A DNA stretch of 30,661 nucleotides from a virus. Location: positions 1 through 30,661 of IMG/VR virus record IMGVR_UViG_3300037189_025266. The stretch is one strand, 5' to 3'. Below the pieces are notes generated by a model. It did no database searches, had not been told where the DNA came from, and saw nothing but the letters and a program-made list of their open reading frames with translations. A program made the translations under genes and the position numbers. This document shows, piece by piece, positions 76-30,281 of the stretch; the stretch's first letter is position 1; each line of letters opens with the position of its first letter.

Positions 76-83
76 TATTTATG
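76..83 (-). promoter_or_regulatory. Late-promoter-like box CATAAATA
   Basis: The minus strand reads CATAAATA, one mismatch from the T4 late promoter TATAAATA recognised by gp55. It overlaps the stop codon of the 205-aa gene, so transcription would start near 68 and give a leader of about 40 bases before the ATG at 26. The identical octamer occurs in the gap before the gp6-like gene (18704-18697). The presence of gp55 in this window makes a late promoter plausible. Confidence 0.5.
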
Positions 84-696
84 CGGCACTCAAATTAGTT
101 AAAGTCTGTATGCGCACAGTATAGTCAATCTGTATCTGTCTATTCAAGCTCTTTTGTACCGGGTGAAAAATCACGTGTGTAATTAGCCGCAAATCGGTAG
201 TCGATCCGCTGACACATTTCAATCCCAGTTCGTCAAACACATATTCGCCATTGAAATTGGTTGAATTATCAAAGGCCTGCTGTCCTGCAGGCTCACCATA
301 GTCCAACAAACAGGTCACCAAAATATCGGTATAGGACTTGCCTGTGGTATGCAACACAGTCATTTTGTTGTTGGCCGGATCTGTGTTAGCAGCCGAATTA
401 TCGTCTACTACCTTGGCATAGGTCTCATTGTATAAATCAGCGTTTTGTCCAGTGACGTTGGGCGGCAAATATGTGATAACCCCAGTAGGATCCACGCTGC
501 TTCCTCCGTTGCCAAAGGCCATTTCGTAGATCCATCCTCCACCTTGAGCTAGAGTTCTGTTGCTGAGTGTTTCGGCCATGGCAATTGAAATATTTTCGTA
601 ATGAATGGCATTCTTTTTATCAACTAGGACTTCGCCTGAATTGGGATCTGTGATCTTGACAAATCCTTCAATTTTACACAAACCTGGCACAATCAT
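79..696 (-). CDS. Virion structural protein, 205 aa, conserved in far-T4 phages (function unknown)
   Basis: A 205-residue protein with no signal peptide or membrane segment, rich in Asn, Thr, Asp and Gly as is usual for virion proteins. Distinct stretches are IEGFVKITDPNSGEVLVDKK (residues 9-28), the AFGNGG-SSVDPTG segment around 60-71, and DYGEPAGQQAFDN with YVFDELGLK in the second half. From memory similar proteins are encoded near baseplate and fibre genes of far-T4 phages without an assigned role. The ATG at 696-694 overlaps the stop of the upstream 48-aa ORF (ATGA), with GGAG eight bases upstream inside that ORF, so translation is probably coupled. Its first 30 residues resemble the 48-aa ORF. 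A small baseplate or fibre-attachment protein is likely; no enzymatic motif is visible. Confidence 0.75.
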   Translation of the reverse strand: MIVPGLCKIEGFVKITDPNSGEVLVDKKNAIHYENISIAMAETLSNRTLAQGGGWIYEMAFGNGGSSVDPTGVITYLPPNVTGQNADLYNETYAKVVDDNSAANTDPANNKMTVLHTTGKSYTDILVTCLLDYGEPAGQQAFDNSTNFNGEYVFDELGLKCVSGSTTDLRLITHVIFHPVQKSLNRQIQIDYTVRIQTLTNLSAA

Positions 697-852: not shown

Positions 853-3800
853 CTATATTTCGCCCCGTAAAAACCTTGCGGCCTGAGTATTGGTCATTTG
901 CAGTGGAACTCCGTTGCTGGGTGTTCCTACACCCGGAGCATACCATGTAACTCCGCGCCGTACCAAAATAGTAACCTCTACTCCAGCTGCTGGAGCGGTA
1001 TCAAATAGGATATTTACAGGATTATCAAGAGTAATTGAATACCCAGCCATTGGTTGCAATAATGTACCACCTACATAAACCTCAACTGCTTCCTCTAAAG
1101 TTGTACTATCTAATGAATCAACGTCAATGTTATCTGCAACAAACAATGTAGTAGATCCGTCTGCTAGGGTCGTTGTTTCAACAATATAATTTTGGAACTC
1201 AGCTGGTAACAGATTTCCGCGGCCCAAATCTGTCACAGTTGCTCCAACGGCATGATTGTCTGTTGCAGTCCCTGCTGTGCCTCGTAGTAAACTACTGATA
1301 GTATTGGTTGCAGTGTTACGTACACGATACATTATACGTTCACCGTTGATCATGACCACGCCCCAGATGTTGATATCTACAGCTGGTTCGCTGAGTGCGC
1401 CGGCATTTGCCACATAGATGATGTCATCGGTTTGACTCAATTCTTGTGTCAATGTTGTTGTAGTCTGCGGTGTTATTCTATAAACTGCTTGCACTCCACG
1501 CATGTCTTGGAATATACGGAAAGCCATGGCTTGTGGCACTACACTTTCAGTGAACATGCTGATCATGACCACATCTATGACACCAAGCACTCCTGCGTGT
1601 AAAATTAATTCTTGACCGCTGATCACAAAATCTACTCCAGGGAACTGCCGGATACCATTCAATGTTACCCACAGTCTGCTGGGATCAGTTATAGTGCGAC
1701 CCAGTTGGAGATCATTGACCGTGACTGTGTCTCCAGTAGAATAATCAAACTGTCCAGGAGTTGCTGATGCCAGGCCTGCAGGATTATCATACAGGGTTTC
1801 GTCGTAGGACTCTGTCACAGTGATGCCTGTGGTCACTGGACCAACATATACCAAGGGCAATATGTTTTGTTGACGAGTATCATTCCAGGTAGTCACAGCA
1901 ATAACATCGCCCAAGATTGGTTCTAACCCGCTGCCAGTCACAAAATTCAATTGGTTACCAGCTACATAACACTGAACTCCGGTTTCCACATACACTTGTA
2001 TTTGACTGCCAAGAGCAGGAGCAGTAAAGAAAATCACTTCTCTGGTATTATTCACATCATATGGTTCAACATAGAAATCAACGTTTAATACCTGAGGTAC
2101 CTGGTCAACATACACATGCACTTGATTGTTGGCGATGGTGTCTTGTGTGAATCCCAAGCGTTGTGGCAACAAGTAAGCTGTGCTGCCATCACCAACATAT
2201 TCGGCTCCGGCTGCTGTCCTGGCCCGTACTCCATTGACCGTAACGATCAGACAGTCGGGATTGGTATAAACAAGACTGTTGTCCAGTTCATAACTGAGGC
2301 TGCTGCCATCTGCCACAATTATTTGTGTCTGTGGAGCACTCCAGCTGTAGTCAACTTCTACATTGTTGACCAAGGTTGGTCCTAGAGCAACCAAACTAAT
2401 AAAGTCTGTGGCAGTATAAGTTGATCCAAATACAATAGTGGTGCCACCTGCGGTTGCGCTGGCATAGGTATAGTTGGTAACTATTATCCCGTTGACAAAT
2501 ATAACGAATTCTTGGATTTCATCAAAGGACACAGGAACTGTTAGTGTATTGCCTACGTCTGCACCATTGTAGATTTGTTTGTAAAGCTGATTGCCGCCGC
2601 CTAGTTCATAAACACTGACAGCCATGACATCACCAGTGGTGGCCCCGGAATTAACAGTTATGACCTGTGTTGGCCAATCTACTGAGCACGCATAAGTTTG
2701 ATCCAATTCAATGCCGGTGGTTTGATTGAAAATCACCACTTGTACTGGATATGGTAAAACTTCAGCAAAATTAAATGTCGGATTGGCACTGTCAAACACG
2801 AAATTGATCACGGTTTCAGGGAATCCGTGGCCGTCGGCCTCCCAGTCCGCTCCGGGTCTGGTGTAAACACGCATGTCTAGGGTGTCAAATTCTGCACCAG
2901 GTACCAGCTCTTCAGGAGCATGACTGCTATAGGTGTCCACGTATGCACCGCCATCTACGTTGACGTCTGTGGCACGAGTGCCCAGATAGATGTCTAAATA
3001 ACTGCTTTCGTACACAGCATCTAGAATAGCAGGATCGTAGGTTGGGCGGCCTTCCGGGCCATAAGCAATATTGTCAAATGGATTGATGTCATAATTGCCT
3101 ACGTCAAAACCAGTGTTTTGATTGAAGTTGACCCCGGTGACCTGGACTCCTGGATAATCAATACCATCAATCAATAATGGAAGACTTAGGCCAGGTTGAT
3201 TGGCAGTTGGAGTATAATAACCCATGGTACGATCTGCACCGCTCAAGGTGCCAGCATCTACCAAGATCCATTGTGTAGGATCAAAGGTTGCACTTTGTAC
3301 ACCGGTGCTGTCGTCGCTGTTGGCTTCCCATACCCTGTCAAGATATCTTACCATGGTACCGTTGTCATAGTTGACATCGGCTTCCCAGTCAACTATGTTT
3401 GAAGTATATTCACAGCGGTCGTATTTGATTGTGGTCTTGATACTACGAACAAGATTGTTGCCCATGACAGCCACAGCACGAGCACCTAGACCGTTGCCGC
3501 CAACCAAGGTTATAATACATTCTGTTGAGAAACCCAGTCCTGGGTTTACTATTTCTATGGACACAACTTGTCCAGCACTGTTTATAATTGCCAAAAGATC
3601 AGGTTCTTCAATGCATGTTCCAGAAATCAGCACCTGCGGAGCCACGGTATATCCAGCACCACCATCGACCACGTTGACTTCAACTATGTTCAACAAGTAG
3701 TTGTTGTACCATTCGCGCCAAGGGTCAAGAGTCCATATTTCAGCATCTGGCGGGGTGTCGCTTACGAAATTTTCTATCAGGCTACCGCTGGGTGTGTAGG

Positions 3801-6800
3801 GTTGTCCGGCTTGATCAAATTGCAACACTGGGCTTATATTTTGCGGAACTTCGAGATCAGTATTCCAATAAGCAGGCACGTCAAAATCGGTCATTGTGCC
3901 TGGATATGCATCATTACCATTATAGACCAGATTGAATTCTCTAATTTGCACATGATATGGTTTGACTTCTTGAATGTAATCGAGTACAAAATCTTGATTG
4001 TCTTGCAAGTATGTCTGGAACGGCAACAAGGTTCGAATCTTGTGATTGACATCGACCAAACTGGTTTTGATCAGCCATTCTGGAGCAGTAAATTCACTAT
4101 AAACATAGTTGAACATAAGAATCAAACTGCGATTGCGTTCAATAGCAAGGTCACCACTGAACAACTGTTCATTGATTGCTTGTATAATTTTTCTTGTTTC
4201 AATCACAGGCTCTTGATCAAAGTATTGTGCATCAAACACTTCGACACCGAATCCAAAATTACCCAACACATAATTCCAAAGTTCTTCACGGAATTGCAAG
4301 GTACCGTCCTGTAATCCCACCCGATCCCACCCTAGGTCTGTGCGTAGATAGATTTCAAATTTGCCCTGAGCATTGGCCCTGACCTTGACACTGCTACCTA
4401 CGGGAGCCGCTGAAAGATTCAGCGTGCTCAATGCTGCAAAATTTGACACTTCTGCCCTGGGCTGGATAGTGCTGTTGTAACCTGGCAGATACCAGTCAAT
4501 ATGATACCAATACCGAGGAGTGCTGTAATTTTGAATTCTTACTAGTTGTGTTGCTTTTTCTCCTGGCAACAAATCTGATTCTATCACTTCGTAGATGCCC
4601 CATAGGCCATTTTGCGTGCTCACAGATACAACCAGATACAGATATCCTAGGGGAACTGCATTGAGATTTTGAAAACTGAGTTCTTCAAGATTGGCCAATC
4701 TCAAATTCCAAGCTCCTGATCCCGATGATGGTTCTGGTTCCTCACTGTTTAATAGACTTAAATTTTTAGTTTCAATTATGGGATACTGCTTGAGAATTCT
4801 GTTGGCATATCCTAAATAATTTTCCAAAGCCATAAAACGGTTGACAAACATGCTTTGACGTGGACGGAACTGTACCCCATAGCGTTCTGCTGGACTTAAA
4901 AATGGGTCTGGCACAACAGAGCCTGCGCTGTCTACACCACAAAAACTATCTTGTAATTTACGATACAAAGTGGTATTTAAAAAGCTATCAGCTTCGCCAT
5001 CGGCCACAAACTGGTACTCGGTGTGTATGTTGGCATCATTGGCTTGACGGTCGTAGCCCACATGTAAAATTGTGTCAGCAGCTGAAATAAATTCTAAACC
5101 ATTGTAGATGGCCACAGTGCTGGCATTCAACAAGGCAATATAAGGTATACCACTGCTGCGCGGACTTTCAATGTAACGTGCAATTCCTGTGGTGCTGAGA
5201 GTTTTTCCGGCTGCGGTATTAATAGTTGTAACGCCGCGCACCCAAAAATAATAGGTGGTGACAAAAATGTTTTCTTGATTGAGACTACTTCTCACTGTGT
5301 AGCTAGTGGTTGTCAACGAAATTCCTGGGCCTGTATAGCTGACCGGAGGCACTGAACTTGCTACCCATTGATAAATGTCAACTCGACTGCCCGGGAATAC
5401 TTGTCCCCAACGACGGCTTGCATATACTATGTCATCTTGGTTGGGATCAATGAATCTAACTTCATTGGTGTCCCACCAGATCTGCCCCACATGTTCTGGT
5501 CCCCAACTGTTGCCTTGATTGCGAACTGTGCCTGTGTTGTAATTAGCAGGGTCTACTGCTCCAATGTAGTCAATATTTTTGCGTGCAGCCCCAAGTATTT
5601 TTCCTTGCAATGGATTAAAGAAATCAAAATATGTTTGTGTGGTAGAAGTCAACTTGTCATACATGAATGAAGTGTTGATCAAGTTTACATCTACCACAGG
5701 TTGTTGAGCATGTATGACTTTCCATGCAGGATCACTGTTGGGGTTATCAAATATTTTTACTACACCATAATTACCAGTGGTGCCGCCGTTGTCATTGTCG
5801 GGTGCTCCTACAATCAATCTTCCGTTGGTAAAGTTTACACCGATGCCAAATTGATCATTGGTTTCAAGGTCATCAGTGAAGATCTGTTGTCCAAATACAA
5901 ATTTACCTGGATTAGTGATACTTCCGTCGGCGCTGGACAAGAAATCGTAAGTGTATACTACTCCGCTGTTAAACACTGGATCAAAGAAGGTGGTGCTGCG
6001 ATCGTCAAAGTAAGTGGCTCCACCATCAAATGTCACAGGATCGTAAATGTTGCCATTGGGAGCGCCTATTACCAGGTTTACAGCACTGCTGTCTATGTGA
6101 ACAGTTTGTCCAAAATAGGCAAAGTCGCTGGGGCTGGGGCTGGTCAAGATCTGTGTGTAAACAAAAGTTTCAAAACCGAACTGATCAAACGCTGTGCCGT
6201 TTACGCCTGGCAACACAGTTAATTTGCCATTGGGTGTGGCTGCTTCGCTGTTTTTCACCGTGATAGTAATGCGACCAGACACCACTGTGATGATACTACC
6301 GGCATCGGGCGCAGTGACAAAATTCAACTGCTCATAGTTGTTGCTCCAACTAAATCCCACAGTTTGTACCACGTCATCTACTAACACTCTTGTGTTGGGA
6401 GTCACGGTGTATGTGGTACTAGAATATATAGTGCCCACATCAAAGGTCTTGTTTGTGCCATCGCCTACAAAATTTAAATCTGGGGTGACCAAGGAGGTAG
6501 CATTGGGTATATTGGATTCATTGATTGTGTTAACCCATGCGTTTATCCAAGTGTCGGCTGCCCAATATGTGGTATTGCCAATGGCTACTCCTACTGGCAC
6601 TGCCTGGATGGATCGATAGATTGACGAGCCATTGGCTACATAATTTCCCAGCGCCCAGGTCACGGTATTGGTCCAAGTAGGCACCGCTAGATCATAATCG
6701 TTGATTCGTAAACTATCACCAGCAACAAAAGTTGGATTGGCCACAGTACTGGTGGTCACACCATACACTCGGCTTTGATTTACATTTCTTTCTACACTGC

Positions 6801-9800
6801 CGGCCTTTGGCAATACCCGACTATCCAACGGAGCACCAACATACAAACTACAATTGGTTGGGCAGATGTCCACAGCTGATCCGTAGGCACTTTCGTCAAT
6901 GGGAGTATCCGCTGATACCTTTTGTATCAACTTGAATTGATTGGTTTGAATCTCTAACACATCGCCCACTGCAGGATTAGACACCAGCGTTATTTGATTT
7001 GTATCTAAATCTACGTCAACTTGACCATTGGCATATTGAGTGGTAGTTATACCGCCTTGAGTTATATTTTGTATGTTCAAGAATGAATTGTTCAACAACA
7101 CAGAAATTGGCTCGGCCACAGCACCAACAATATCGTAAGTTGTTACAGAAACATCATCAATCAAATATTTGATAACACTACGGTCAACTATGTAAGCGGC
7201 GCCGGCCTGTATTTGCACAGTATTGCCATTGCTGTCAATCACGTCTACATCAGCATCACTGGCCCCCACAATAACCTGTTGTCCATCTGTGGTTGTAGTA
7301 AGACTGCCGCCAAACTTGGCATTCGCTGGAAGTCCTGCTACAGTTATAGTATCACAGTATCTCCAATAGGTAGTACTGGTTACATCAATAATATCTCCAA
7401 TGCCCGGAGCCACATTGAATCTTAAATCCTTGGTTAGATCATTGCTGTCTGAATTAAATTCATAGTCAATATAAGGTCTTTGAAGGTTGCCATTGATTCT
7501 GACTGTAAAAGAATCTATATTTGTAGCTGTGTATAGATATGGATCCAATAAAAAGTCAACAGTGCTGCCGTCACCAGTAAACTGCACACCACTGCGACGA
7601 CGTATTGTTAGTACCTGGTCAGCGTCCGGAGCAACAGCAAATGTAATACTGCTTATACCAACGGAATAATCAACCCCTTCCGTGGCAGTAAAAGTTCCAA
7701 CAGTGACCACAATCTGTGTGGTGCGATATGATTGATCAACCACAATGTCATTGATATAATTGAAACTCAACGTGCTACCGTCAGTGGTATACCTTGATAC
7801 CTGCTCTTCTACATCTACACGACCATATGCATATACCTTGCCGCCTTGGGTGTCGTCGGGTGCGCCAATATACATCCATCTTTCGTCCTGGCTTACTGCA
7901 AGGGCCTGGCCAAATCTCATAGGATCAATGCTGGGACTAGGACGAACTATCAGTTGTGTTTGACTGAATGCTCCGGTGACACTGTTTCTAAACAAGGGTG
8001 TCACATAACCAAAATTATTTAAACTTTGACTGGCGGCTGCAGCACCCCAGTTGTTGCGCCCAAACACCAGGGTATCTCCATAGGCCACAACATCAGTGGC
8101 CGGAAGCGTGATCAGTCCTTCGGCGGTGTATTCATTGTTGATGGTGTTGGAACGATACAAATATACTCCACCTGTATTGGAATTGCTGTTGGGACTTCCT
8201 ACCAACACTGCCACAAGATTTTCAGTCTGTGTTACTGTGGTGCCAAATCCAGAATTGGTGATCTGAGGATCTGGCAGTATCTGCGAGATTGAACTAAATG
8301 GATCTTGTTTTTGTAGAACTTGCCAATGGCCAAGGCCATTGTTGTCTACATAGGCCAATGCACCTGGAATCAGATCATTTACATAAGGCAGATTGATAAT
8401 ATCACTGGCCTGTGCTACACGCATGGTCTGTAGATAAAATACCAAACCAGTACCAGTTATAGTGGTTTGATTGGTGTTGATAAAATTGTAAGCAATTGTG
8501 ACGCTGGTAATAGACGGCACCGACAACACACGGTACACTCCAGTGACTGCGTCATTGAAATACCGCACAATAATTAGATCTCCCACAGAAAGATCATGTG
8601 CTTGATTGAATTGTGCTATGCTTGTGCCATTGAGATTGTCAACCAATTGACGCATCTGTCCAGGCACACGACTGCATCTATACACATTCCAGTCATAACT
8701 GTTGCTCTTGGCAGCCCAAATAGTGGTTCCAAGTCCTATAGACTCAATATTTGCGCTGATACTAGAAGGATCGTCAAGACTAAACACTGTGATATCCACA
8801 TCATCAATATTGACATATCCAGCACTGGGTAATGCTGTGTCAAGATTGGTGGTGTAGGTTGTTGGAAATATATCCGTAGAAGTCAATCTAAAACTTTCTC
8901 TCCATACGTCATCCAACAAGACAGTCTGATTGGCCAGACTGGTTTGTTCTGGCAATATGACCTGAACAGTGCTGGGATCTGAATTTAGATCAGCTTCGTT
9001 GAGTCTGAGTTCAATAAAACTTCTTACAGCGTTGGCTCCATAAGTGCTGACCAACACTCCCCAGTTTTCATAAATCTGATACTCTCCGATTTCTTTGCCA
9101 AGGTCGGCATTGGTAAAAATTTCAGCGGCTCGAGTGGTGCCCTTGGTTGGCAAAAATTGTTGATAGAGATTTACCTGACTTACATCGTCAAGATTTAAAT
9201 CAACCATGTACTGTCGTGGACGAAATCCTATGAGACCGTAACTGAGCAGATCGTTGTCACTTTCAAGATTGGCCACTTGTGTGTTATAGCTGTTGGCCAG
9301 TTGATCGGCCTTGTTGGCTAGGTTAGGCAACAGACCACCTTGTATTCTGGTATAATCGCTCTTGACCCAGTCATTGTACTCGAATTCACGTTTGGGCTGA
9401 ACAATGGTCTGCGCTGACCAATAATTGTTTTTGTATATAACAATTTCGCCTTTGGTGTATTTGCGATTGGCCTGCCATTGTTTGACTGTTGTGTTGTCGT
9501 TGAGTATGAATCCCTGGGCGTCCAGGGTGCCGTCCCACTCAGTAGAGGTAGCCGCTATAATTCTCACACGATTTTGTCTGGCCGCTGTGGTTGGATCATA
9601 TATCAGGTCACTGAAGACGCTGACATTGTCCAGTATCACAATATTTTCATAATTGGTAAACTGCATGTTCAAGAAACTAATAGTCTGATTACCAGGAGAA
9701 GTAATGGAAAAGAAATCAGATTCGCGTTCAATGATCAGGTCTCTTGTGGGCAAGTTCTGACGATTTTGATCCAACAACAGATTTTCTGGGCTGGTGCTAA

Positions 9801-12800
9801 TAATAGTATCCACCACAGCTCCAGGTTTTACTGCTTGCAACGTAGTAGCAGCTGGATTCAAGTTGATTAGTGTGCCGGGTGTCCATCCTTGCTGACTGAA
9901 ATACAAAAACTCTGTGGCCATTTGAGACCAATTCAATGTGTAACCGTTTTCCCTGTCGTTAAAGATTAGACCCTGTGTTTCCAAATACTTGCCATAACTC
10001 AATATAAAGTCAACTACCATGGTGGTATTGGTAAAGGTATAACCGTAGGGCACTTTGACCACGTTGTTGGTATATTGAGCTGGTACCCGTACTTCAGCGC
10101 CACCACCGCTTATGGACTGTAGCAATCCATTGCTGGAACTGGCCAACACATTGAAATAAGGTGTGGCGTTGTTGTATCCCCAGACCGAATATCCATCTGT
10201 GGTACGTTCCACAATCAAACTGCTGTAGATGATTCTATCAAAAGGTTGATTTTTATACAACAACAAGTTATAGCTATCATCGGGCAACAACAAACTGCTG
10301 TTGGTGCTGTTGGGACTGCTGCGCTCGAGAAAAATCTTAAGATACTGTTTGTCAGTGAAGCTGGCCATTCTATAGCACAAGCGTACGGTTATGTTGGATA
10401 AATCTTTGGTCAGTTCTGTGGTGCTGTTGCGACCCAACTGTTGATTGTAATCCACGATCCAATCAATGTAACTGGCCTTGCTGACTCCATTGCCATATAT
10501 CTCCAAGGTACTGTCAACAGGTTGATTTGGCAAGGTAGCTGTGGTCAAGCGATATCGACCACGATAGAGATACTGTCCAAGCTCGGCATCAAATCTATAC
10601 AAATCTCTGTCGGCAAACAGGCTGAAAAATTCTGCTGGCCGGGTCATGGCCAACAGGCGCATGATAGCAAATGGATAACTGGAACTGGCACGCCAAGAAT
10701 ATTCTACGGGGCCGCCATCACCGGGTACCCAGCTCTTGCGAAACGCCGAAGGGTCATAAGGACCGACCACACTTTCAATTGGTGATAACAAGCTAAACTC
10801 AGTGCTGTTTGGAATAACCTTGGTCAGTCCAGGTCTGGCGTACTCAGGTCGCACATAAGGTGCCACAGGATCAGCGACCAGGCCTAGTTCAAGGTCGTCC
10901 CACAACACCAAGTTGTCGCTGGTATAAGGAGCAGGACCATAACGATTTTCCCACCAGGCTGGTTGTTCACTGAATCCCAGCATTTCCCAAGGTGTAAAAT
11001 TGGGGCTGGTAGTATCATAAAAATATTGATAAATGCCGCGCCAGGCTCCCAACAATGGTTCACCGTTGATCTTGTTACCGGCTGTGCTGTAGTTGTAGGT
11101 AAACGGATCGTTGGGATTGTAGTTTTGTGTTGTATAATCTAACTTGTTGGCACCTACCCAGATCAAGAAACTTTCATTCAAGATATCGTTGATTTCAGTC
11201 AGACTATAATCAGTCTGGCGAAAAAATCCAGGAATGACATCGGCCGCTGTTAGTGGAATAGGATTTCCATCTGTTTTTAAATTGTTGTAAATGCGTCGTT
11301 CAAATTCTAACAGTATTTCGTCACGGAAATCATTGAATGCAATAGTGATACTGCCATCGTGTCCTTGAATAACCACTGTGGGTTCTACATAATTAGGATC
11401 CACAAACATCTGTGGCACAAACTTGGGATACAATCCCAGTTTGGTCGGAGTATTGGGTACAAAGTTACCAGCAGTGTCAGAGTATTCTCTAATGGTTATG
11501 ACATCACCTGTTTGTAAAGGTGTTGTAACTACAAGTCTTGGCGAATCCACTGATACTTCATATTCTTGGTCGCGTACCAGCAACACAGTTTCTGATCTTG
11601 AATTCTCTGTTGCACGAGTCAAGTAAACACTTAATCCCAAATAGTTGGCCGAAGTGTAATCATAAACCTGATTTGTGTTGAATTCGGGCACTGTGATTGG
11701 CGTTATAGGATTAACAGATTCCGTGTATACTGCTCCCGTTGGCATCATGTCTGACCAATAAAATGGATTGATGTCTGTACGTCCTTTGGTTATTTCTGCC
11801 ACAGCTGAATCCAGTATACCAGCAATTCCCAGGTCTCCATAATCATTACTGACCACAGTTTCCAATAATAGACTTTTGAATTTAATATATTCTCGACTGT
11901 TGTATTCTATGGCAGAAAAAATATTGTATTGTTTGCTGCGTTGGAAATAGCCTGCCAAAGTCAACGGACTACTTTGTTGTAGAATTTGTAGTCCGTACGG
12001 TATAATGTTGCCTAGATCTCGGCTGTTGTTGGAGCCGATTATAGGCCCTTGCAAAGTGGTCAAATTCTGACCAATGGTTTCATAATGGGCACGTATGGTC
12101 CCTAGAGTAAAAATCTCGCTGTTGGCATTCAAAGGATTGTTTTCAAGATTCACAGGAACCTGATAGAATGCTGTGGCACTAACTTGGTCACTAATTACAG
12201 ACACTTCAATCACATCCCCCGGCACATACGCAGTGGTCAAAGTGATCGTGGTCGTAGTTGATGTGGTGACGTAGGTATAGTTGTCAGGTTTTTGGAATTG
12301 ATTGTTTACATACAACTGTACCGCAGGAACACTGCCATTGTCAGGTGATACTGCCACGTCTAACAACAACGGACTACCATCATAGCTGAATTGAAATTGT
12401 TGTCTTTGGACACTGGGCACTATTGCCGTTTGCCATCCAAGCTCTCTAACAAATGCAATTCGATCGCTGTACTGCCTGACAAAGCCTTCGCTGATGTATT
12501 TGGTTTGTCCAGTTGATTCAGTCACGTACTCAAATGTGTCAGTGTAAAGATTATTGGCAAACACAATGTCGCCCACGTTGGCCAGGCTCAAATAACGCAA
12601 AGGAAATCCTAAAACTGTGTCTGCAATTGATCCGGTACTTTCAGCATAACTGAACAACTTGCTACCGCGGAATGTGCTACTTGTATACTTTATACGATTG
12701 CTGAAACTCTCTCCAGTACTGTCATATACATCAAACAATGGAGCTTGATTGACTGAGGTTTTGTCCTGAGCTGGCAACCATTCAACTCCGTCGTAGTAAA

Positions 12801-15231
12801 AACTTTTTCCCTGGAGAGTGGTTCCACTGAGGCATACCGTGGTTTGATTTATCAATACATCAGCATCGGCGGCTGGAATCAAATTAATCACTGGTTGAGC
12901 AATCAACGGAGGCACAGTATCCGGAATAATAAATTGCACTTCATAAATCTTGTTGCGTACCTGGCTGTCAGTATCTGCAGCAAAGATCACTTGAGTTCCA
13001 GAAATAAAATTGTATCCATCCACACTGTATCCAGTGGTTCCATTGATTTCGCTCAAGGCGTCGGTGGTTTCAAAGTCTATGATATTAACTGGTTGTTTGC
13101 CTTGGGTTCCAAAATTAAATAGCTTTGTACCCGCACGAAATTCCAAAATTGGCCGGCGTGCCCTAAAAAGATTGTCTGCGGCCGGAACAGTGTTGTTGTA
13201 TTCGGCCGAAGCATTGATTACATCAATATGGAACCAACGATTGCTTCTAGTCCAAGGATTGAGATCGTCGCTGGCACGATTAATGGTCAGATAATCCGGA
13301 ACCAATGGTGCATTCTCTGTAGCATCATATCCACCCACATCATAGGGTAAGCTGTCAAAAGGGATTGTGCCGCTTTGAGTGTAGGGTTCAGGAGTTACAA
13401 AATTTGTTACAGGCAACAACTGGATAGCAGTACCTACTCCTTCCACGTAGTATTCATTGTTGGCATATGAAACAGGTTCAACATCTCCTCTGAATACTAC
13501 TTTAAGACCATTGGTGAATACTACACCATTGGGAGACGTATAGTTTTTTTGACCAATGATGTCTTCAACAAAGATTGTTTCTGCCTGATCTTGATCCAAC
13601 AGTCTAATTTGTCCAAAAATTTCTGGATCGGTTCCGTCTTGATAAAACAACAAACTTTTTATAGCAGTCAACAACGGTATCTGTTCAAAATAGCCACTGG
13701 CGTTTTTGTACCAATTGGTGCTGGCATACGTGGTTCCAAACTGCACTTGAAATTTTTCTAAATTGGCTACCGGCAACACGCTGGTCAAAGTCATGTAAGT
13801 TTGTCCACCATTGGTGTTGTATTGTATTTGCCATACACTGTATCTTTGATCTTGACTGACAATGTCTGTGGTTTGGTCAAACGCAGTCGAATCATAAGAC
13901 CCAACTGGACTTACCACGTTACCTGCATTGGGCAGAGGATCAAACCTGGAAGTGATCTGCCATCCGCCGTCTTCGGCGTTGGCCGTTTGATTCAAAAACA
14001 CAATTGTTTTTCCGTTGAGATCTTTGATTCCGTCAATGCCATTGGAGTTGGCTTCAAAGAATGGATCCAAGAAAATGTTGTTGATTTGATTGAAATCCAA
14101 CGTGGTCACCAGATCCACAGTTCCCGGCAGTTGGCCAGGGATATTTCCAATGGGTGCCAGTGTGTAATAAAAATTCTGAGCAGTGCTTAAAGGAACATTG
14201 AATGTGACCGTGCCCAAGTCTTCACCGTTGTTGATCACGCCCAGCACATCTCTTGAACTGATATTAGGGGTGGATGGGATACGTCCACTGACTCCAGGAT
14301 CTGTCTGTATCCAAAATCCAGGACCTGTGCCAGCAGTGGCATCAATCACGTTCATTGTGCCGCGCATGTTGGCCTGGACTGGATTTACGTAGTACAATGT
14401 ATCAGGAGCAGTTTGTGGAACTGTAAAGGTAATAGTGCCTGTGGCAGCTCCATTGTTGGTTACTCCATCATCATAGCGATTTGTTGTGCCCAGTGTTGGT
14501 TCGGTTTTGATATAAAAAGGAAACACTCCGTCCATGACCAGGGTAAAGGTGTAGGTATTGCCCCGCACCAAAGTAAGCGTGGGATTGGATTGAAAATCAA
14601 TCACATAGGCTGATGTACGATCATTGGACACACGGAAATTGACATCTTCGGTGGCATTTTGTGCAACCTGGAAATTGTAATTGCCGCCACGTAACAAAGT
14701 AACTGTGGGATTGTTGCCGGCCAAGCCGCTGAAGGTGTAAACACCATTGGCACGTGTGACTGTGAAAGTGTCAGTGAGCGGCACCCCGGTTGAGGATATG
14801 TCTGCTGAATCTGGGCCATCTGGTAGCCAATAATACTGACTGTAATTGACAAACTTGTCAAAGTCAACAAAAGGATCCCAAGTATAATAATCACTGGTAT
14901 ACAGTCTATCAGCATTGTTGGTTTTGGCACCTTGCAAATTCAATGCTGCATTGATACCGGGATAGGTAATGGAATCTCGTATGACACCGGTGTCTGGGTC
15001 GAGACTGATCACTCCGGGTTCCAACTGATAGTTGTTGCGTTCGGCTGTGGGTTCGATTACATAACGATCCGCAGCATTGACTCCGGGACCTATCTTGCGC
15101 CCAACGAATCCTTGAGTCTTTTGAAATGCAGGTTCTTGCGTGAGTTGGTCTAAGGTAGCATTAAGAAACTGCCGATTGACTGGAGTTTGAAATATTTCTG
15201 GTAGAAATTCAACTGTACGAACTCGTGCCAT
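853..15231 (-). CDS. Giant multidomain baseplate/tail-fibre-like structural protein, 4792 aa
   Basis: A single open frame of 14.4 kb directly downstream of the gp6-like gene, where T4 has the wedge gene 7. Residues 1-150 (VEFLPEIFQTPVNRQFLNAT onward, then a Tyr/Trp-rich stretch) look like the conserved N-terminus I recall from large structural proteins of cyanophages and related phages, and probably anchor it to the baseplate. Further along are: cupredoxin-like beta domains (about 172-374); three CBM5/12-like Trp/Tyr modules (from about 1917, 2851 and 3947); six or seven FG-GAP propeller blades (2328-3130); the conserved segment around EWLIKTSLVDVNHK and EVKPYHVQIREF (3700-3790); a GGAGYTVAPQ-type repeat (3860); and fibre-like GDGST/VNG repeats (4150-4760). 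The C-terminus has an INGERIMYRV module. No signal peptide, transmembrane segment or catalytic motif is seen. ATG overlaps the gp6 stop (TAATG). Confidence 0.85.
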   Translation of the reverse strand: MARVRTVEFLPEIFQTPVNRQFLNATLDQLTQEPAFQKTQGFVGRKIGPGVNAADRYVIEPTAERNNYQLEPGVISLDPDTGVIRDSITYPGINAALNLQGAKTNNADRLYTSDYYTWDPFVDFDKFVNYSQYYWLPDGPDSADISSTGVPLTDTFTVTRANGVYTFSGLAGNNPTVTLLRGGNYNFQVAQNATEDVNFRVSNDRTSAYVIDFQSNPTLTLVRGNTYTFTLVMDGVFPFYIKTEPTLGTTNRYDDGVTNNGAATGTITFTVPQTAPDTLYYVNPVQANMRGTMNVIDATAGTGPGFWIQTDPGVSGRIPSTPNISSRDVLGVINNGEDLGTVTFNVPLSTAQNFYYTLAPIGNIPGQLPGTVDLVTTLDFNQINNIFLDPFFEANSNGIDGIKDLNGKTIVFLNQTANAEDGGWQITSRFDPLPNAGNVVSPVGSYDSTAFDQTTDIVSQDQRYSVWQIQYNTNGGQTYMTLTSVLPVANLEKFQVQFGTTYASTNWYKNASGYFEQIPLLTAIKSLLFYQDGTDPEIFGQIRLLDQDQAETIFVEDIIGQKNYTSPNGVVFTNGLKVVFRGDVEPVSYANNEYYVEGVGTAIQLLPVTNFVTPEPYTQSGTIPFDSLPYDVGGYDATENAPLVPDYLTINRASDDLNPWTRSNRWFHIDVINASAEYNNTVPAADNLFRARRPILEFRAGTKLFNFGTQGKQPVNIIDFETTDALSEINGTTGYSVDGYNFISGTQVIFAADTDSQVRNKIYEVQFIIPDTVPPLIAQPVINLIPAADADVLINQTTVCLSGTTLQGKSFYYDGVEWLPAQDKTSVNQAPLFDVYDSTGESFSNRIKYTSSTFRGSKLFSYAESTGSIADTVLGFPLRYLSLANVGDIVFANNLYTDTFEYVTESTGQTKYISEGFVRQYSDRIAFVRELGWQTAIVPSVQRQQFQFSYDGSPLLLDVAVSPDNGSVPAVQLYVNNQFQKPDNYTYVTTSTTTTITLTTAYVPGDVIEVSVISDQVSATAFYQVPVNLENNPLNANSEIFTLGTIRAHYETIGQNLTTLQGPIIGSNNSRDLGNIIPYGLQILQQSSPLTLAGYFQRSKQYNIFSAIEYNSREYIKFKSLLLETVVSNDYGDLGIAGILDSAVAEITKGRTDINPFYWSDMMPTGAVYTESVNPITPITVPEFNTNQVYDYTSANYLGLSVYLTRATENSRSETVLLVRDQEYEVSVDSPRLVVTTPLQTGDVITIREYSDTAGNFVPNTPTKLGLYPKFVPQMFVDPNYVEPTVVIQGHDGSITIAFNDFRDEILLEFERRIYNNLKTDGNPIPLTAADVIPGFFRQTDYSLTEINDILNESFLIWVGANKLDYTTQNYNPNDPFTYNYSTAGNKINGEPLLGAWRGIYQYFYDTTSPNFTPWEMLGFSEQPAWWENRYGPAPYTSDNLVLWDDLELGLVADPVAPYVRPEYARPGLTKVIPNSTEFSLLSPIESVVGPYDPSAFRKSWVPGDGGPVEYSWRASSSYPFAIMRLLAMTRPAEFFSLFADRDLYRFDAELGQYLYRGRYRLTTATLPNQPVDSTLEIYGNGVSKASYIDWIVDYNQQLGRNSTTELTKDLSNITVRLCYRMASFTDKQYLKIFLERSSPNSTNSSLLLPDDSYNLLLYKNQPFDRIIYSSLIVERTTDGYSVWGYNNATPYFNVLASSSNGLLQSISGGGAEVRVPAQYTNNVVKVPYGYTFTNTTMVVDFILSYGKYLETQGLIFNDRENGYTLNWSQMATEFLYFSQQGWTPGTLINLNPAATTLQAVKPGAVVDTIISTSPENLLLDQNRQNLPTRDLIIERESDFFSITSPGNQTISFLNMQFTNYENIVILDNVSVFSDLIYDPTTAARQNRVRIIAATSTEWDGTLDAQGFILNDNTTVKQWQANRKYTKGEIVIYKNNYWSAQTIVQPKREFEYNDWVKSDYTRIQGGLLPNLANKADQLANSYNTQVANLESDNDLLSYGLIGFRPRQYMVDLNLDDVSQVNLYQQFLPTKGTTRAAEIFTNADLGKEIGEYQIYENWGVLVSTYGANAVRSFIELRLNEADLNSDPSTVQVILPEQTSLANQTVLLDDVWRESFRLTSTDIFPTTYTTNLDTALPSAGYVNIDDVDITVFSLDDPSSISANIESIGLGTTIWAAKSNSYDWNVYRCSRVPGQMRQLVDNLNGTSIAQFNQAHDLSVGDLIIVRYFNDAVTGVYRVLSVPSITSVTIAYNFINTNQTTITGTGLVFYLQTMRVAQASDIINLPYVNDLIPGALAYVDNNGLGHWQVLQKQDPFSSISQILPDPQITNSGFGTTVTQTENLVAVLVGSPNSNSNTGGVYLYRSNTINNEYTAEGLITLPATDVVAYGDTLVFGRNNWGAAAASQSLNNFGYVTPLFRNSVTGAFSQTQLIVRPSPSIDPMRFGQALAVSQDERWMYIGAPDDTQGGKVYAYGRVDVEEQVSRYTTDGSTLSFNYINDIVVDQSYRTTQIVVTVGTFTATEGVDYSVGISSITFAVAPDADQVLTIRRRSGVQFTGDGSTVDFLLDPYLYTATNIDSFTVRINGNLQRPYIDYEFNSDSNDLTKDLRFNVAPGIGDIIDVTSTTYWRYCDTITVAGLPANAKFGGSLTTTTDGQQVIVGASDADVDVIDSNGNTVQIQAGAAYIVDRSVIKYLIDDVSVTTYDIVGAVAEPISVLLNNSFLNIQNITQGGITTTQYANGQVDVDLDTNQITLVSNPAVGDVLEIQTNQFKLIQKVSADTPIDESAYGSAVDICPTNCSLYVGAPLDSRVLPKAGSVERNVNQSRVYGVTTSTVANPTFVAGDSLRINDYDLAVPTWTNTVTWALGNYVANGSSIYRSIQAVPVGVAIGNTTYWAADTWINAWVNTINESNIPNATSLVTPDLNFVGDGTNKTFDVGTIYSSTTYTVTPNTRVLVDDVVQTVGFSWSNNYEQLNFVTAPDAGSIITVVSGRITITVKNSEAATPNGKLTVLPGVNGTAFDQFGFETFVYTQILTSPSPSDFAYFGQTVHIDSSAVNLVIGAPNGNIYDPVTFDGGATYFDDRSTTFFDPVFNSGVVYTYDFLSSADGSITNPGKFVFGQQIFTDDLETNDQFGIGVNFTNGRLIVGAPDNDNGGTTGNYGVVKIFDNPNSDPAWKVIHAQQPVVDVNLINTSFMYDKLTSTTQTYFDFFNPLQGKILGAARKNIDYIGAVDPANYNTGTVRNQGNSWGPEHVGQIWWDTNEVRFIDPNQDDIVYASRRWGQVFPGSRVDIYQWVASSVPPVSYTGPGISLTTTSYTVRSSLNQENIFVTTYYFWVRGVTTINTAAGKTLSTTGIARYIESPRSSGIPYIALLNASTVAIYNGLEFISAADTILHVGYDRQANDANIHTEYQFVADGEADSFLNTTLYRKLQDSFCGVDSAGSVVPDPFLSPAERYGVQFRPRQSMFVNRFMALENYLGYANRILKQYPIIETKNLSLLNSEEPEPSSGSGAWNLRLANLEELSFQNLNAVPLGYLYLVVSVSTQNGLWGIYEVIESDLLPGEKATQLVRIQNYSTPRYWYHIDWYLPGYNSTIQPRAEVSNFAALSTLNLSAAPVGSSVKVRANAQGKFEIYLRTDLGWDRVGLQDGTLQFREELWNYVLGNFGFGVEVFDAQYFDQEPVIETRKIIQAINEQLFSGDLAIERNRSLILMFNYVYSEFTAPEWLIKTSLVDVNHKIRTLLPFQTYLQDNQDFVLDYIQEVKPYHVQIREFNLVYNGNDAYPGTMTDFDVPAYWNTDLEVPQNISPVLQFDQAGQPYTPSGSLIENFVSDTPPDAEIWTLDPWREWYNNYLLNIVEVNVVDGGAGYTVAPQVLISGTCIEEPDLLAIINSAGQVVSIEIVNPGLGFSTECIITLVGGNGLGARAVAVMGNNLVRSIKTTIKYDRCEYTSNIVDWEADVNYDNGTMVRYLDRVWEANSDDSTGVQSATFDPTQWILVDAGTLSGADRTMGYYTPTANQPGLSLPLLIDGIDYPGVQVTGVNFNQNTGFDVGNYDINPFDNIAYGPEGRPTYDPAILDAVYESSYLDIYLGTRATDVNVDGGAYVDTYSSHAPEELVPGAEFDTLDMRVYTRPGADWEADGHGFPETVINFVFDSANPTFNFAEVLPYPVQVVIFNQTTGIELDQTYACSVDWPTQVITVNSGATTGDVMAVSVYELGGGNQLYKQIYNGADVGNTLTVPVSFDEIQEFVIFVNGIIVTNYTYASATAGGTTIVFGSTYTATDFISLVALGPTLVNNVEVDYSWSAPQTQIIVADGSSLSYELDNSLVYTNPDCLIVTVNGVRARTAAGAEYVGDGSTAYLLPQRLGFTQDTIANNQVHVYVDQVPQVLNVDFYVEPYDVNNTREVIFFTAPALGSQIQVYVETGVQCYVAGNQLNFVTGSGLEPILGDVIAVTTWNDTRQQNILPLVYVGPVTTGITVTESYDETLYDNPAGLASATPGQFDYSTGDTVTVNDLQLGRTITDPSRLWVTLNGIRQFPGVDFVISGQELILHAGVLGVIDVVMISMFTESVVPQAMAFRIFQDMRGVQAVYRITPQTTTTLTQELSQTDDIIYVANAGALSEPAVDINIWGVVMINGERIMYRVRNTATNTISSLLRGTAGTATDNHAVGATVTDLGRGNLLPAEFQNYIVETTTLADGSTTLFVADNIDVDSLDSTTLEEAVEVYVGGTLLQPMAGYSITLDNPVNILFDTAPAAGVEVTILVRRGVTWYAPGVGTPSNGVPLQMTNTQAARFLRGEI

Positions 15232-18200
15232 TAAATTACTCCACTGCCAGGAGCAGTTCTAATATTGGTGCTTGTCAAGGCCTGGATCACTTCAATGTCG
15301 TTGACCGTGGCTCCATTGACAAAGATTTGATTTGGAGCAGATCTGATCTCGTATAAGTCACCAAAATATTTTTGTGGGTTGAGTGGAACCAACACAACAC
15401 TGCTGACTATGTCGCCGATCTGGCTATGTATGTAAGCGCCTAATTCTGAAAAATAAAATGTGTCACCAAAGTCCCATTTGTCAAGACTGAAATAGGCATC
15501 CATGTTGGCCACAACTAAATTTTTGATTTCGCTGACACTGGCAGTGCTACCACTGGACCGGATGACCTTGATTGTGGCTCGAAGTTCTTCGGCAGCTTTT
15601 TGTCCAAACACTGGTTTAAAATCCACACTGTTTAGAATCATGTTGTCACTGATCATTTTGTATTCCTGTAAACCAGCATACTCTGTGGTCAGCTGATCAA
15701 TGGTAGGCGGCACAGGCTTTTGCACAGTGCCAGTGACGTCTCTCAACCAGTTTTGATAGGCAGTGTAATAGGCCAAGGTCACAATATAGATATCAATGAT
15801 ATTGGTACTGCCTGGATCAATCCTGGAAGTCAAAGGGCTGTTGTGACGGTATTGAAAATATAGATCTTGACGTCCGGTACGGGCAATAAATGCGGAGCTT
15901 TGTGTGAGCAATCGATTGCCGGAGAGATCCAGTGATAAAACATAAAATAGTCCTGTTTCATAGGCATAGAATACCTGACCTGAAACATATTCTTCTTTGA
16001 CCAATTCAATAGCATCCAAGGTAGAATATTGGCTGTTTACACGACCTTGTTCGACTAATAGATAGCGTTGCAAATTGTCAAAATCTACAGTTTCCTCCAA
16101 GAACACCCAAGGACTGTTGGCAGTGGGCGGGTTTGGTGCTGTGCCTACAATTTCTGTAAAGAAATCTGGGTTGTCAGGAACTCCGTCGCTGTCTGAATCT
16201 TCAAAGCTGACCAAAACCTGGAAGTCATCCACATATCCGTCGCTTTCCACAGGCTGACCGATAATTTTGAGTCGATTGTCTCCCTCCAGGGGCAGATTGT
16301 TGTTGGGTTTACTGTTGGTTTTTAACACATTAACAAAGTCGCTGAGCACTGTGCCAGTGCGGCTGTCATAGATCTTTTGGTCACTGAAGAAGAAAAATCT
16401 TGTTTGTAGCACACTGCCAAAGTAGTAGTCTAAGCTGCGGCTGACCACAGTATAGTTGGTTCCATCAGTGGTGGTGGCCTGAATAAACCAGCTGGCATCA
16501 AGATTGCCACCCGAGACATCGCCTGCATACTGTTGACTCCAGGGTGCTGTGGCAGGTGCCAGATTGTTTGCAGTTATCAAATACCAAGTGCCAGCAGTGC
16601 CGGTAACCACTCCATCATTGTCATAGCCTAGACCAAAATTTTGATTGAGAGTGATTTGATCTATCATGCTCTGACGCAAGGTATTGGTAAAATCCGTGAC
16701 AAACAAAGGTATTACTTGTGTTAAAAGTGCGCCTGTTGGTACAAAATTATTGAGCACCACAGGTCCTTGACCATTGGCTAAATTACCTTGACCTTGATTG
16801 GTGCCATCTAGATATACTGCGGTAGGACTGGCCCAGATAACCATTTTTTCTTCGGCTCGTACTGGCACGCCAGCTACCAATCGGTTGTTGGCATCAAAGA
16901 AATACCCAGCTGGCGGTTCAAACTTTATGAGACTTCCTACCACAACATATTTCATGTTGTTGGATGTATAAGCGCCGATGGGCACTGGATTATTCAGACT
17001 GTTTTTAAAATAACCTGTGGTCTCGTTGGCCAGCACTGTGCTCTGATTCCACGAGTTGTTCAATGCTGTTAGGCTGGGTCTAGGAAAGTTAGCATAGTAA
17101 AATTGTTTTGCACCTGCTTGCAACAAAAGTGGAGTGATTTGATTGGTAACCACGTCACTGACATCGTTGGTGGTCAACCAAGCAAAATTAAATGCTGGCA
17201 GGTTGTTGGCTTCATACAATGCACCATCGCTGCTGAAAACATTGGTGCTGGAATATTTTCCTGTGTTGTCCACCAGATCTAGATAACGACTGGTTCCGAT
17301 TGAAGCACGATTCAAAGCCTTGCTTTTTAAAATTGAATTGTAGGCGGTGAATGGAAAGTTGTTGTAGTCTTCGCCGTTGACCATGCGATTCTGTGTGTAG
17401 TATCGAGCTGGAGCACGCTGTTTGATTTCGTCGATGGTTTCACGAGCCTGGGCGTTGCTCACAGGTTCGGTTATGCCGCAGGTAAAGGTAACAGTTTCAA
17501 TCTGTCCGGTGCGGCTCACATAGCTGATGGGAATCTGTACACTCTGCATTTCCTCTGGATTGATAATGTATTGTAGCCCGTTCGACGCCCGTACATAAGC
17601 GCGGAATAATCCTACAGGTATGGCACTAAACACTCCGTCGCCAAAGTTAAGTGTGATCTGGTCGTTGGTACGAGATGTTACACTAAAGATTGCTCTTGTT
17701 CCTGGCGTCAATTGTTCAATGGCAGCTCCATAAACGCTTTCAACAAAGTTCCATTCTCTAGCAACATTGCCTAGATTGTCCAGCTGGTACAACCAACGGT
17801 CGGTGTTGTTGATGCCTTCAATGTTGATATTGACCGTGCGATTGGCCACACGCTCAGGCAAGTTGAAATCTTGATTTTGTAACACGCCCTGTTTGAACAG
17901 GAAAAAATATCCAGTGTTGGCTGACGCAAATCCCAGCTCGTCGTTGCGAAACAGCACATTGAATTGACCATTGGGCAAGGGACTGGGTTCTTTGATGACT
18001 TTGTTGCCTTCAGTTCCTGTTGCAGTGGCATTGACCGCTTCAAATGGCATGTTAACGCCGTCGACTGTGGCGGTGTAGGGGACCACTGGTAAAAATCCAG
18101 GAACCAGATTAATGGTATATTCGTCAGTTCTCATGCCAATTATATTGTTACGGGCCCCGGGACGTCCAATGCGTTGTGTATCTACCAGGCTGGCATTGAT

Positions 18201-18677
18201 AATGGCCGTAAACTGTTCTTGCCAATCAAAATTGCTAGGATCTGCCCAGGTGACCGTGACATTGGCCAAGTTGATGCCGTTGTAGTCAATGACATTTTCT
18301 GTGGTTTGCACAGAAAATACCTTGAGATACCCCGATGCTTCTGTGTTGCGCTTGGGTGTGTAGCTGACCAGATTGGCCAATTTTACCACACTGTCACGTC
18401 GTTCAGCTGTGTCTAGATAACTTTCACGAGTGTTTAGGTCTGTGCGGAAGGCCAGAGCCTGGCCCATGAATGCCATGACATCTAGTAGGGCAATGAACTC
18501 ACTAGACTCAATGTAATCGTTAAAGGTTTCTGGATAGTACAGGCGCAGATAGTCCACAAAACTCTTGCGCAGTGTTTCAAAATCATAGCTTTGAAAGTCG
18601 GCTTCGCGATAGGTCTGATAGATTCGCTTCCAATCTTCTACACCAAATATCGCGGTTTGTCTAGTGGTTCTGGCCAT
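15231..18677 (-). CDS. gp6: Baseplate wedge subunit, gp6-like, 1148 aa
   Basis: T4 gp6 is the wedge protein that dimerises around the hub to form the inner baseplate ring and belongs to the baseplate-J-like group. The N-terminal 110 residues carry the features I recognise: FVDYLRLYYPETFNDYIESS, then a helical LLDVMAFMGQALAFRTDLN and NTRESYLDTAERRDSVVKLA, ending in SYTPK. A baseplate-J-like beta domain follows, with NFGDGVFSAIPVG and later RQDLYFQYRHNS. At 1148 residues it is clearly longer than T4 gp6 (about 660), the excess lying in the C-terminal half. It starts 53 bp downstream of the gp25-like gene behind a CATAAATA box and an AGGAAG ribosome-binding site, and its stop overlaps the start of the giant gene. 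Position after gp25 supports the call. Confidence 0.85.
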   Translation of the reverse strand: MARTTRQTAIFGVEDWKRIYQTYREADFQSYDFETLRKSFVDYLRLYYPETFNDYIESSEFIALLDVMAFMGQALAFRTDLNTRESYLDTAERRDSVVKLANLVSYTPKRNTEASGYLKVFSVQTTENVIDYNGINLANVTVTWADPSNFDWQEQFTAIINASLVDTQRIGRPGARNNIIGMRTDEYTINLVPGFLPVVPYTATVDGVNMPFEAVNATATGTEGNKVIKEPSPLPNGQFNVLFRNDELGFASANTGYFFLFKQGVLQNQDFNLPERVANRTVNINIEGINNTDRWLYQLDNLGNVAREWNFVESVYGAAIEQLTPGTRAIFSVTSRTNDQITLNFGDGVFSAIPVGLFRAYVRASNGLQYIINPEEMQSVQIPISYVSRTGQIETVTFTCGITEPVSNAQARETIDEIKQRAPARYYTQNRMVNGEDYNNFPFTAYNSILKSKALNRASIGTSRYLDLVDNTGKYSSTNVFSSDGALYEANNLPAFNFAWLTTNDVSDVVTNQITPLLLQAGAKQFYYANFPRPSLTALNNSWNQSTVLANETTGYFKNSLNNPVPIGAYTSNNMKYVVVGSLIKFEPPAGYFFDANNRLVAGVPVRAEEKMVIWASPTAVYLDGTNQGQGNLANGQGPVVLNNFVPTGALLTQVIPLFVTDFTNTLRQSMIDQITLNQNFGLGYDNDGVVTGTAGTWYLITANNLAPATAPWSQQYAGDVSGGNLDASWFIQATTTDGTNYTVVSRSLDYYFGSVLQTRFFFFSDQKIYDSRTGTVLSDFVNVLKTNSKPNNNLPLEGDNRLKIIGQPVESDGYVDDFQVLVSFEDSDSDGVPDNPDFFTEIVGTAPNPPTANSPWVFLEETVDFDNLQRYLLVEQGRVNSQYSTLDAIELVKEEYVSGQVFYAYETGLFYVLSLDLSGNRLLTQSSAFIARTGRQDLYFQYRHNSPLTSRIDPGSTNIIDIYIVTLAYYTAYQNWLRDVTGTVQKPVPPTIDQLTTEYAGLQEYKMISDNMILNSVDFKPVFGQKAAEELRATIKVIRSSGSTASVSEIKNLVVANMDAYFSLDKWDFGDTFYFSELGAYIHSQIGDIVSSVVLVPLNPQKYFGDLYEIRSAPNQIFVNGATVNDIEVIQALTSTNIRTAPGSGVI

Positions 18678-29543: not shown

Positions 29544-30281
29544 ATGGAAAATATTTACTATGTTTACGCATTGATTGACCCAAGAACAAATTTACCGTTT
29601 TATGTAGGTAAAGGAAAAAATAATCGTATGTTGCAACATTTAAAAGAAGGTGCTACAGGCGGAGTAAAAAAGAATAATAGAATAGCAGAAATTAGAGCCG
29701 CAGGGCTTGAACCTGTTGCGGTTAAGTTAGCTGGAAATATGTTTAATAATGAAGCTTACAATTTAGAAGAAGATATTATCTCAGAATTAGGTAGAGAAGA
29801 TATTGAAAAAGACGGAGTTTTAACTAATAATAGACTACACGCCCGGGGTCCTGTTATGACTGACGAAGTTCGATTAGCAATATCTTCTCGGCGTACAGGA
29901 ATGACATTTAGTAAGGATCATCGTAAGAATTTAAGTTTAGCAAAAGCCGGAAAAACATATGAAGAAATTTATGGTATCGAGGGTGCTAAAAAGAGGCGAG
30001 AACAATTAGCAGAAAAAAGAAGGCCGATGTCTGAGGGAAGAAAAAATAATATCTCAGCGGCTAAAAAAGGTATGGATGCTCCGCATGATTGGAGTGTAGC
30101 TTCTCGTAAAAAAGTAAGCGATAAGCTAACTGGTGTTCCTAAAAATTTAACCGACGATGAGCATAAACGTCGTCAAGAAGTAAACAATTTTTTAATGCAA
30201 TGCCCGCATTGTAGTGCGGAAGGTAAGGGGCTATCAATGAAACGATGGCACTTTAATAACTGTAAAGAAAGAGTACATTGA
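29544..30281 (+). CDS. GIY-YIG homing endonuclease with NUMOD3-like repeats (245 aa)
   Basis: A free-standing homing endonuclease that would cut an endonuclease-free allele so that its own gene is copied in. The N-terminal nuclease domain has YVYALIDPRTNLPFYVGKGK (residues 6-25), the YVY...YVG form of GIY-YIG, followed by Arg28, a Glu in YNLEEDII (75 or 76) and TNNRL, matching catalytic positions. Residues 105-200 contain Ser/Lys/Arg-rich NUMOD3-like DNA-binding motifs (MTFSKDHRKNLSLAKAGK, PMSEGRKNNISAAKKG). The C-terminal CPHCSAEGKGLSMKRWHFNNC is a C-C-H-C zinc-finger-like end common in phage enzymes of this type. It sits between gp47 and gp46, is visibly more A/T-rich than gp47, has GGAG four bases before the ATG, and its stop overlaps the likely TTG start of gp46. 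Confidence 0.92.
   Translation: MENIYYVYALIDPRTNLPFYVGKGKNNRMLQHLKEGATGGVKKNNRIAEIRAAGLEPVAVKLAGNMFNNEAYNLEEDIISELGREDIEKDGVLTNNRLHARGPVMTDEVRLAISSRRTGMTFSKDHRKNLSLAKAGKTYEEIYGIEGAKKRREQLAEKRRPMSEGRKNNISAAKKGMDAPHDWSVASRKKVSDKLTGVPKNLTDDEHKRRQEVNNFLMQCPHCSAEGKGLSMKRWHFNNCKERVH

Follow-up and report, generated by a model that had tools for sequence, protein, structure and literature searches.

The virus record IMGVR_UViG_3300037189_025266, analysed over its full 30,661 bases (the window), encodes a giant protein in which a motif of the FG...GAP type recurs. The locus raises the question of whether these repeats form a single propeller of the integrin type, as an earlier note on this DNA had proposed, and what such a fold would do in the virion. 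The window carries genes for a late sigma factor, SbcD- and SbcC-like proteins, hub and baseplate proteins, a gp25-like and a gp6-like protein, and then the giant ORF. This arrangement matches that of Escherichia phage 121Q and Pseudomonas phage PA5oct. The giant gene, its upstream neighbour and the two conserved segments around a variable slot were placed as follows.

853..15231, minus strand: giant virion structural protein, 4,792 aa (phrog_10938, E 1.1e-293)
15231..18677, minus strand: gp6-like baseplate wedge protein, directly upstream of the giant ORF (phrog_10646, E 1.7e-281; phrog_219, E 1.2e-24)
8653..11466, minus strand: conserved core on the upstream side of the slot, residues 1256-2193 (alignment with 121Q, PA5oct and Atu_ph07)
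3760..5724, minus strand: conserved flank on the downstream side of the slot, residues 3170-3824 (flank alignment)

Both the profile match and the position after gp6 placed the giant protein in phrog_10938, and its PA5oct homologue carries an ESI-MS/MS mark in its own record. The position and this mark suggest that the giant protein is a baseplate virion protein. Relatives of the window were found on contigs reaching 345 kb, so the source virus is probably a jumbo myophage. A PDB sequence search gave no match to T4 gp7 for the giant protein or its core. The AlphaFold2 model of the conserved core was poor (pTM 0.43), and its Foldseek search returned no known baseplate protein and nothing at E below 0.001. 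The gp7-like position of the giant protein is therefore one of synteny only. Chitin-binding domains were among the Foldseek neighbours of this core model. Residues 1918-1939 form a CBM5/12-like module, sub-threshold in Pfam, that recurs in the PA5oct and Atu_ph07 homologues.

Other genes of the window showed features of their own. A small protein beyond the giant gene (79-696, minus strand) belongs to phrog_11259. The protein at 19121-21154 (minus strand) contains L/N/G-rich repeats (NLGNLSNLGNL, LTGALTGQLGSL). At its start the ORF shares about 175 bases with the preceding gene, and the actual start codon may therefore be further downstream. A GIY-YIG homing-endonuclease-like gene (29544-30281, plus strand; PF22945 / phrog_314) sits between the SbcD-like and SbcC-like genes.

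The seven motifs of the giant protein, six clear and one weak, were all found where the earlier note had listed them, except that its residue numbers were approximate (off by 0-12). They start at residues 2329, 2384, 2440, 2640, 2783, 3040 and 3128. The pattern [FY]G-x(6-16)-hydrophobic-[VI]G[AS] occurred 6 times in the 4,792 residues against 0.17 expected (5,000 shuffles, maximum 3), and a stricter form occurred 5 times against 0.009 in shuffles. The motif was absent from six other virion proteins of the window. Conservation was followed in 136 distinct relatives' sequences, a set that includes the window. The FG glycine was kept in 132-136 of the 136 in every blade. The weak blade 2, which reads YGDTLVFGRN in the window, proved to be real, with [YF]G in 133/136 sequences and GA in nearly all; here the window is the exception. 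Profile comparison among the seven blades supported a shared origin of most pairs, with blade 2 the weakest.

The earlier suggestion of an FG-GAP family match held for one Pfam family and failed for another. FG-GAP_2 (PF14312; curated cut-off 23 bits) scored 32.7 bits (E 8.3e-8) over the whole protein and 42.9 bits (E 5.5e-11) in a sub-region. It matched at E 0.01 or better in 16 of the 17 sequences of the first alignment, and exceeded the cut-off in 7/7 relatives' contigs. The classic FG-GAP family (PF01839) had no match in the window's record and one weak match (E 4.2e-4) among the 17 aligned sequences. No DxDxDG calcium loop was present in the blades of the window, and the loops between strands A and B were 2-5 residues long in all blades of the 136 relatives. 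A loose DxDxDG pattern was detected in 43 relatives; the inspected examples lay in the N-terminal hairpin, outside the blades. The lack of calcium-binding loops points to an FG-GAP_2 propeller rather than an integrin domain. Sequence searches of the PDB (queries P0001, A2 and A3) returned nothing significant, and no relative was found in GTDB genomes.

We then considered the fold. The AlphaFold2 model of residues 2240-3210 (971 residues, 79-sequence alignment) had a mean pLDDT of 89.2 and a pTM of 0.88, and displayed seven A-B-C-D strand sets, one per predicted four-strand blade. The top Foldseek neighbours in the PDB were the propellers of integrins alpha5, alphaIIb and alphaV (probability 1.00, E 1.7e-8). 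Even the best TM values to these integrins were low (0.36-0.39 by target); the large inserts probably interrupt the alignment. Predicted viral FG-GAP proteins gave best TM values of 0.70 to 0.82, normalised to target. The low integrin TM, and the spread of the repeats over 850 residues, would suit independent β-sandwiches or an open array, with no single ring. Against this reading stand the pTM over all 971 residues, the TM of 0.70 to a predicted protein of Atu_ph07 (393 aa; about seven repeats by eye) and 0.75 to a 411-aa protein, both predicted FG-GAP propellers, and the retention of seven repeats in insert-free relatives. We regard the absence of a single ring as very improbable. Mean-field DCA (136 sequences, effective number 92) was noisy; it recovered some within-blade strand pairs, and the pairs H63-A936 and H63-V933 gave a weak hint that the N-terminal hairpin lies beside blade 7. 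Taken together, the integrin-type seven-bladed fold proposed earlier is upheld as a prediction: residues about 2290-3180 most probably form one seven-bladed FG-GAP_2 propeller (probability about 0.93), and the closure of the blades into a single ring is well supported by the model, the Foldseek neighbours and the TM to FG-GAP propellers. The predicted layout is given below.

8308..8358, minus strand: N-terminal hairpin WVDNxGxGxWxVLEK, candidate ring closure, residues 2292-2308 (sequence and AlphaFold2 model)
8110..8247, minus strand: blade 1, residues 2329-2374 (motif, AlphaFold2 model, conservation)
7936..8082, minus strand: blade 2, degenerate in the window and clear in relatives, residues 2384-2432 (AlphaFold2 model, conservation)
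7816..7914, minus strand: blade 3 strands A-C, residues 2440-2472 (motif, AlphaFold2 model)
7369..7815, minus strand: blade 3 C-D loop insert, two GDGST-type β modules, residues 2473-2621 (AlphaFold2 model, loop lengths in 136 sequences)
7345..7368, minus strand: blade 3 strand D, residues 2622-2629 (AlphaFold2 model)
7162..7314, minus strand: blade 4 strands A-C, residues 2640-2690 (motif, AlphaFold2 model)
6961..7161, minus strand: blade 4 C-D loop insert, residues 2691-2757 (AlphaFold2 model, loop lengths in 136 sequences)
6916..6960, minus strand: blade 4 strand D, residues 2758-2772 (AlphaFold2 model)
6778..6885, minus strand: blade 5 strands A-C, residues 2783-2818 (motif, AlphaFold2 model)
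6166..6777, minus strand: blade 5 C-D loop insert, CBM5/12-like stretch and T7-fibre-N-like module (~2920-2993), residues 2819-3022 (PF03906, AlphaFold2 model, loop lengths; CBM-like by eye)
6145..6165, minus strand: blade 5 strand D, residues 3023-3029 (AlphaFold2 model)
5881..6114, minus strand: blade 6, without a C-D insert, residues 3040-3117 (motif, AlphaFold2 model)
5704..5850, minus strand: blade 7, best FG-GAP_2 match, residues 3128-3176 (Pfam, motif, AlphaFold2 model)

The extra modules had been thought to sit between blades. Instead, they lie inside blades 3, 4 and 5, each between strands C and D, with lengths of 149, 67 and 204 aa in the window. Inserts occupied the same three loops in 136/136 sequences (139-307, 56-110 and 95-217 aa, respectively), whereas in blades 1, 2, 6 and 7 the C-D loop had 3-14 residues. 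Large inserts in other loops were rare. In integrins, the 1-2 and 3-4 loops are at the end opposite the FG-GAP motif (PMC3192720). With all inserts in C-D (3-4) loops, the modules should therefore project from one face. The mean identity over the 136 sequences was 0.39-0.52 for the inserts and 0.44-0.64 for the blades. In two distant relatives, L249 and L275, the seven repeats fit into about 480 aa and no large insert is present, which suggests that the modules were added. FG-GAP_2 scored 17.5 bits in the compact L249, below the cut-off. The E-INS-i alignment misplaces blades 2-3 in compact members, so their seven repeats are taken from motif counts and reading.

The nature of the modules was less clear than their position. 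The T7 fibre N-terminal domain (PF03906) matched the blade 5 module with E 2.9e-5 and 24.2 bits, just under the cut-off of 25.2; support in relatives was weak, with 2 of the 17 sequences of the first alignment matching (E down to 6e-5). The view that adhesin domains are carried on the propeller loops survives as to the loops; as to the adhesins, the sub-cut-off PF03906 signal places the GDGST modules weakly nearer to the T7 fibre N-terminal domain than to any known adhesin. A T7-fibre-N-like module would suggest docking over adhesion. The proposed CBM-like module, a stretch of the blade 5 insert, had no Pfam match and is kept for its resemblance to the other CBM5/12-like module of the protein.

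The propeller fills a slot whose content varies among relatives. The flanks of the giant protein align with homologues of the RaK2/121Q/PA5oct/Atu_ph07 type at about 19-40% identity. Between them, the slot holds about 1,000 aa in the window, 120 in 121Q, 300 in PA5oct and 436 in SCTP-2, and about 1,530 residues of other sequence in Atu_ph07 and Phosso. The propeller profile had no match in the giant proteins of these five cultured phages, and a tblastn search of 50,697 phage records (INPHARED) with the propeller region found none. On the core tree (FastTree; long branches), 81 propeller-bearing rows were separated from 29 propeller-free rows, which include cultured phages and IMG/VR contigs, by a single change with 100% local support. 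The propeller was gained or lost once on this tree. Mapping of insert-bearing and compact states required 5-6 changes; only the change in propeller presence was used, because the compact state was assigned from rough anchors and the branches are long. The group comprises at least about 550 database stretches and 216 propeller sequences, not dereplicated. Sinorhizobium phage Phosso (PV764938.1, ~48-69 kb) encodes two giant ORFs of 3,702 and 3,182 aa that hold most of 42 FG-GAP_2 matches and are possibly a multi-propeller array.

What might such a propeller do? It occupies a slot of variable content, flanked by two segments that the examined relatives conserve, and three sets of β modules are predicted to project from one face, on the C-D loops in blades 3, 4 and 5. 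At the periphery of the baseplate it could serve as a rigid mount presenting these modules, which might contact the host surface by glycan binding or dock a fibre. We lean modestly towards this reading, in which the place in the virion, the binding and the role in adsorption are all inferred. By analogy, the propeller might rather be structural, its loops holding neighbouring wedges or the tail together and its inserts serving as contact arms instead of adhesins. The T7 nozzle protein gp12 has a seven-bladed propeller used in this way, the blade loops making the strongest contacts between subunits (PMC6702177). The presence of inserts in every sequence of the window's group, about as conserved as the blades, also suits contact arms over a hypervariable adhesin. 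However, insert length differs two-fold among sequences at blades 3 and 5, and the distant relatives have no large inserts, both unusual for an essential contact. We consider this structural role possible but somewhat doubtful.

An enzyme acting on host surface glycans, in the manner of phage sialidases, is improbable. Enzymatic propellers do occur in tail spikes, for example sialidases, but integrin-type propellers are binding domains. In addition, no Pfam enzyme family was matched, and the PDB neighbours of the model were integrins. Some room for activity is left by the propeller of PhiKZ gp131C, which was proposed to be a receptor binder or an enzyme (as cited in PMC4901313). Returning to the peripheral mount, we tentatively suggest a course of events that is possible but speculative: the lineage may have acquired one FG-GAP propeller within its giant baseplate protein, after which loops on the same face of three adjacent blades became sites for adding and exchanging adhesin or docking modules, giving a host-range platform resembling an integrin head that bears several inserted domains.

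Both phage FG-GAP propellers and propellers in the tails of phages had been described before. What is new here is the setting of the FG-GAP_2 propeller and the pattern of its inserts. These would connect a fold like that of integrins with the baseplates of a large, uncultured group of jumbo phages, and provide a natural series from plain to module-bearing propellers within one protein. With this series, it becomes possible to test whether gains of modules on one face follow host range. In the literature collection consulted, no paper linked FG-GAP with jumbo phages or the baseplate.

Comparison with known systems places the window's propeller among several relatives in fold or position. The phrog_10938 giant proteins of the RaK2/121Q/PA5oct/Atu_ph07 type are the same protein in the same gene order, without the propeller in five cultured members. 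The repeat family is shared with the 409-aa hemagglutinin-like protein of Atu_ph07, whose predicted fold fits at TM 0.70, and with two proteins of Phosso (3,702 and 3,182 aa). There, the propellers are separate proteins; in the window, the propeller is instead a segment of the giant protein encoded beside gp6, with modules inserted in three blades. The N-terminal propeller of integrin alpha, the best PDB neighbour, likewise has seven blades with FG in strand 1 and GAP in strand 2, but the window's propeller lacks a PF01839 match and has no DxDxDG calcium loops in its blades. The integrin I domain is single and lies between blades 2 and 3. In contrast to this one I domain (integrins may also bear an inserted domain; PMC3192720), the inserts of the window are in the strand 3-4 loops of three blades. 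With PhiKZ gp131C (PDB 4GBF), compared by description, another jumbo phage has a seven-bladed propeller at the periphery of its baseplate, proposed as a receptor binder (as cited in PMC4901313); there it is the C-terminal domain of a separate protein. The propeller of the phi11 receptor-binding protein has a cavity that could hold GlcNAc (PMC4901313). T7 gp12, also compared by description, is a seven-bladed propeller of a phage tail with an extra domain, at the nozzle tip, reached from a blade 3 loop (PMC6702177); it differs in forming a hexameric nozzle that gates DNA.
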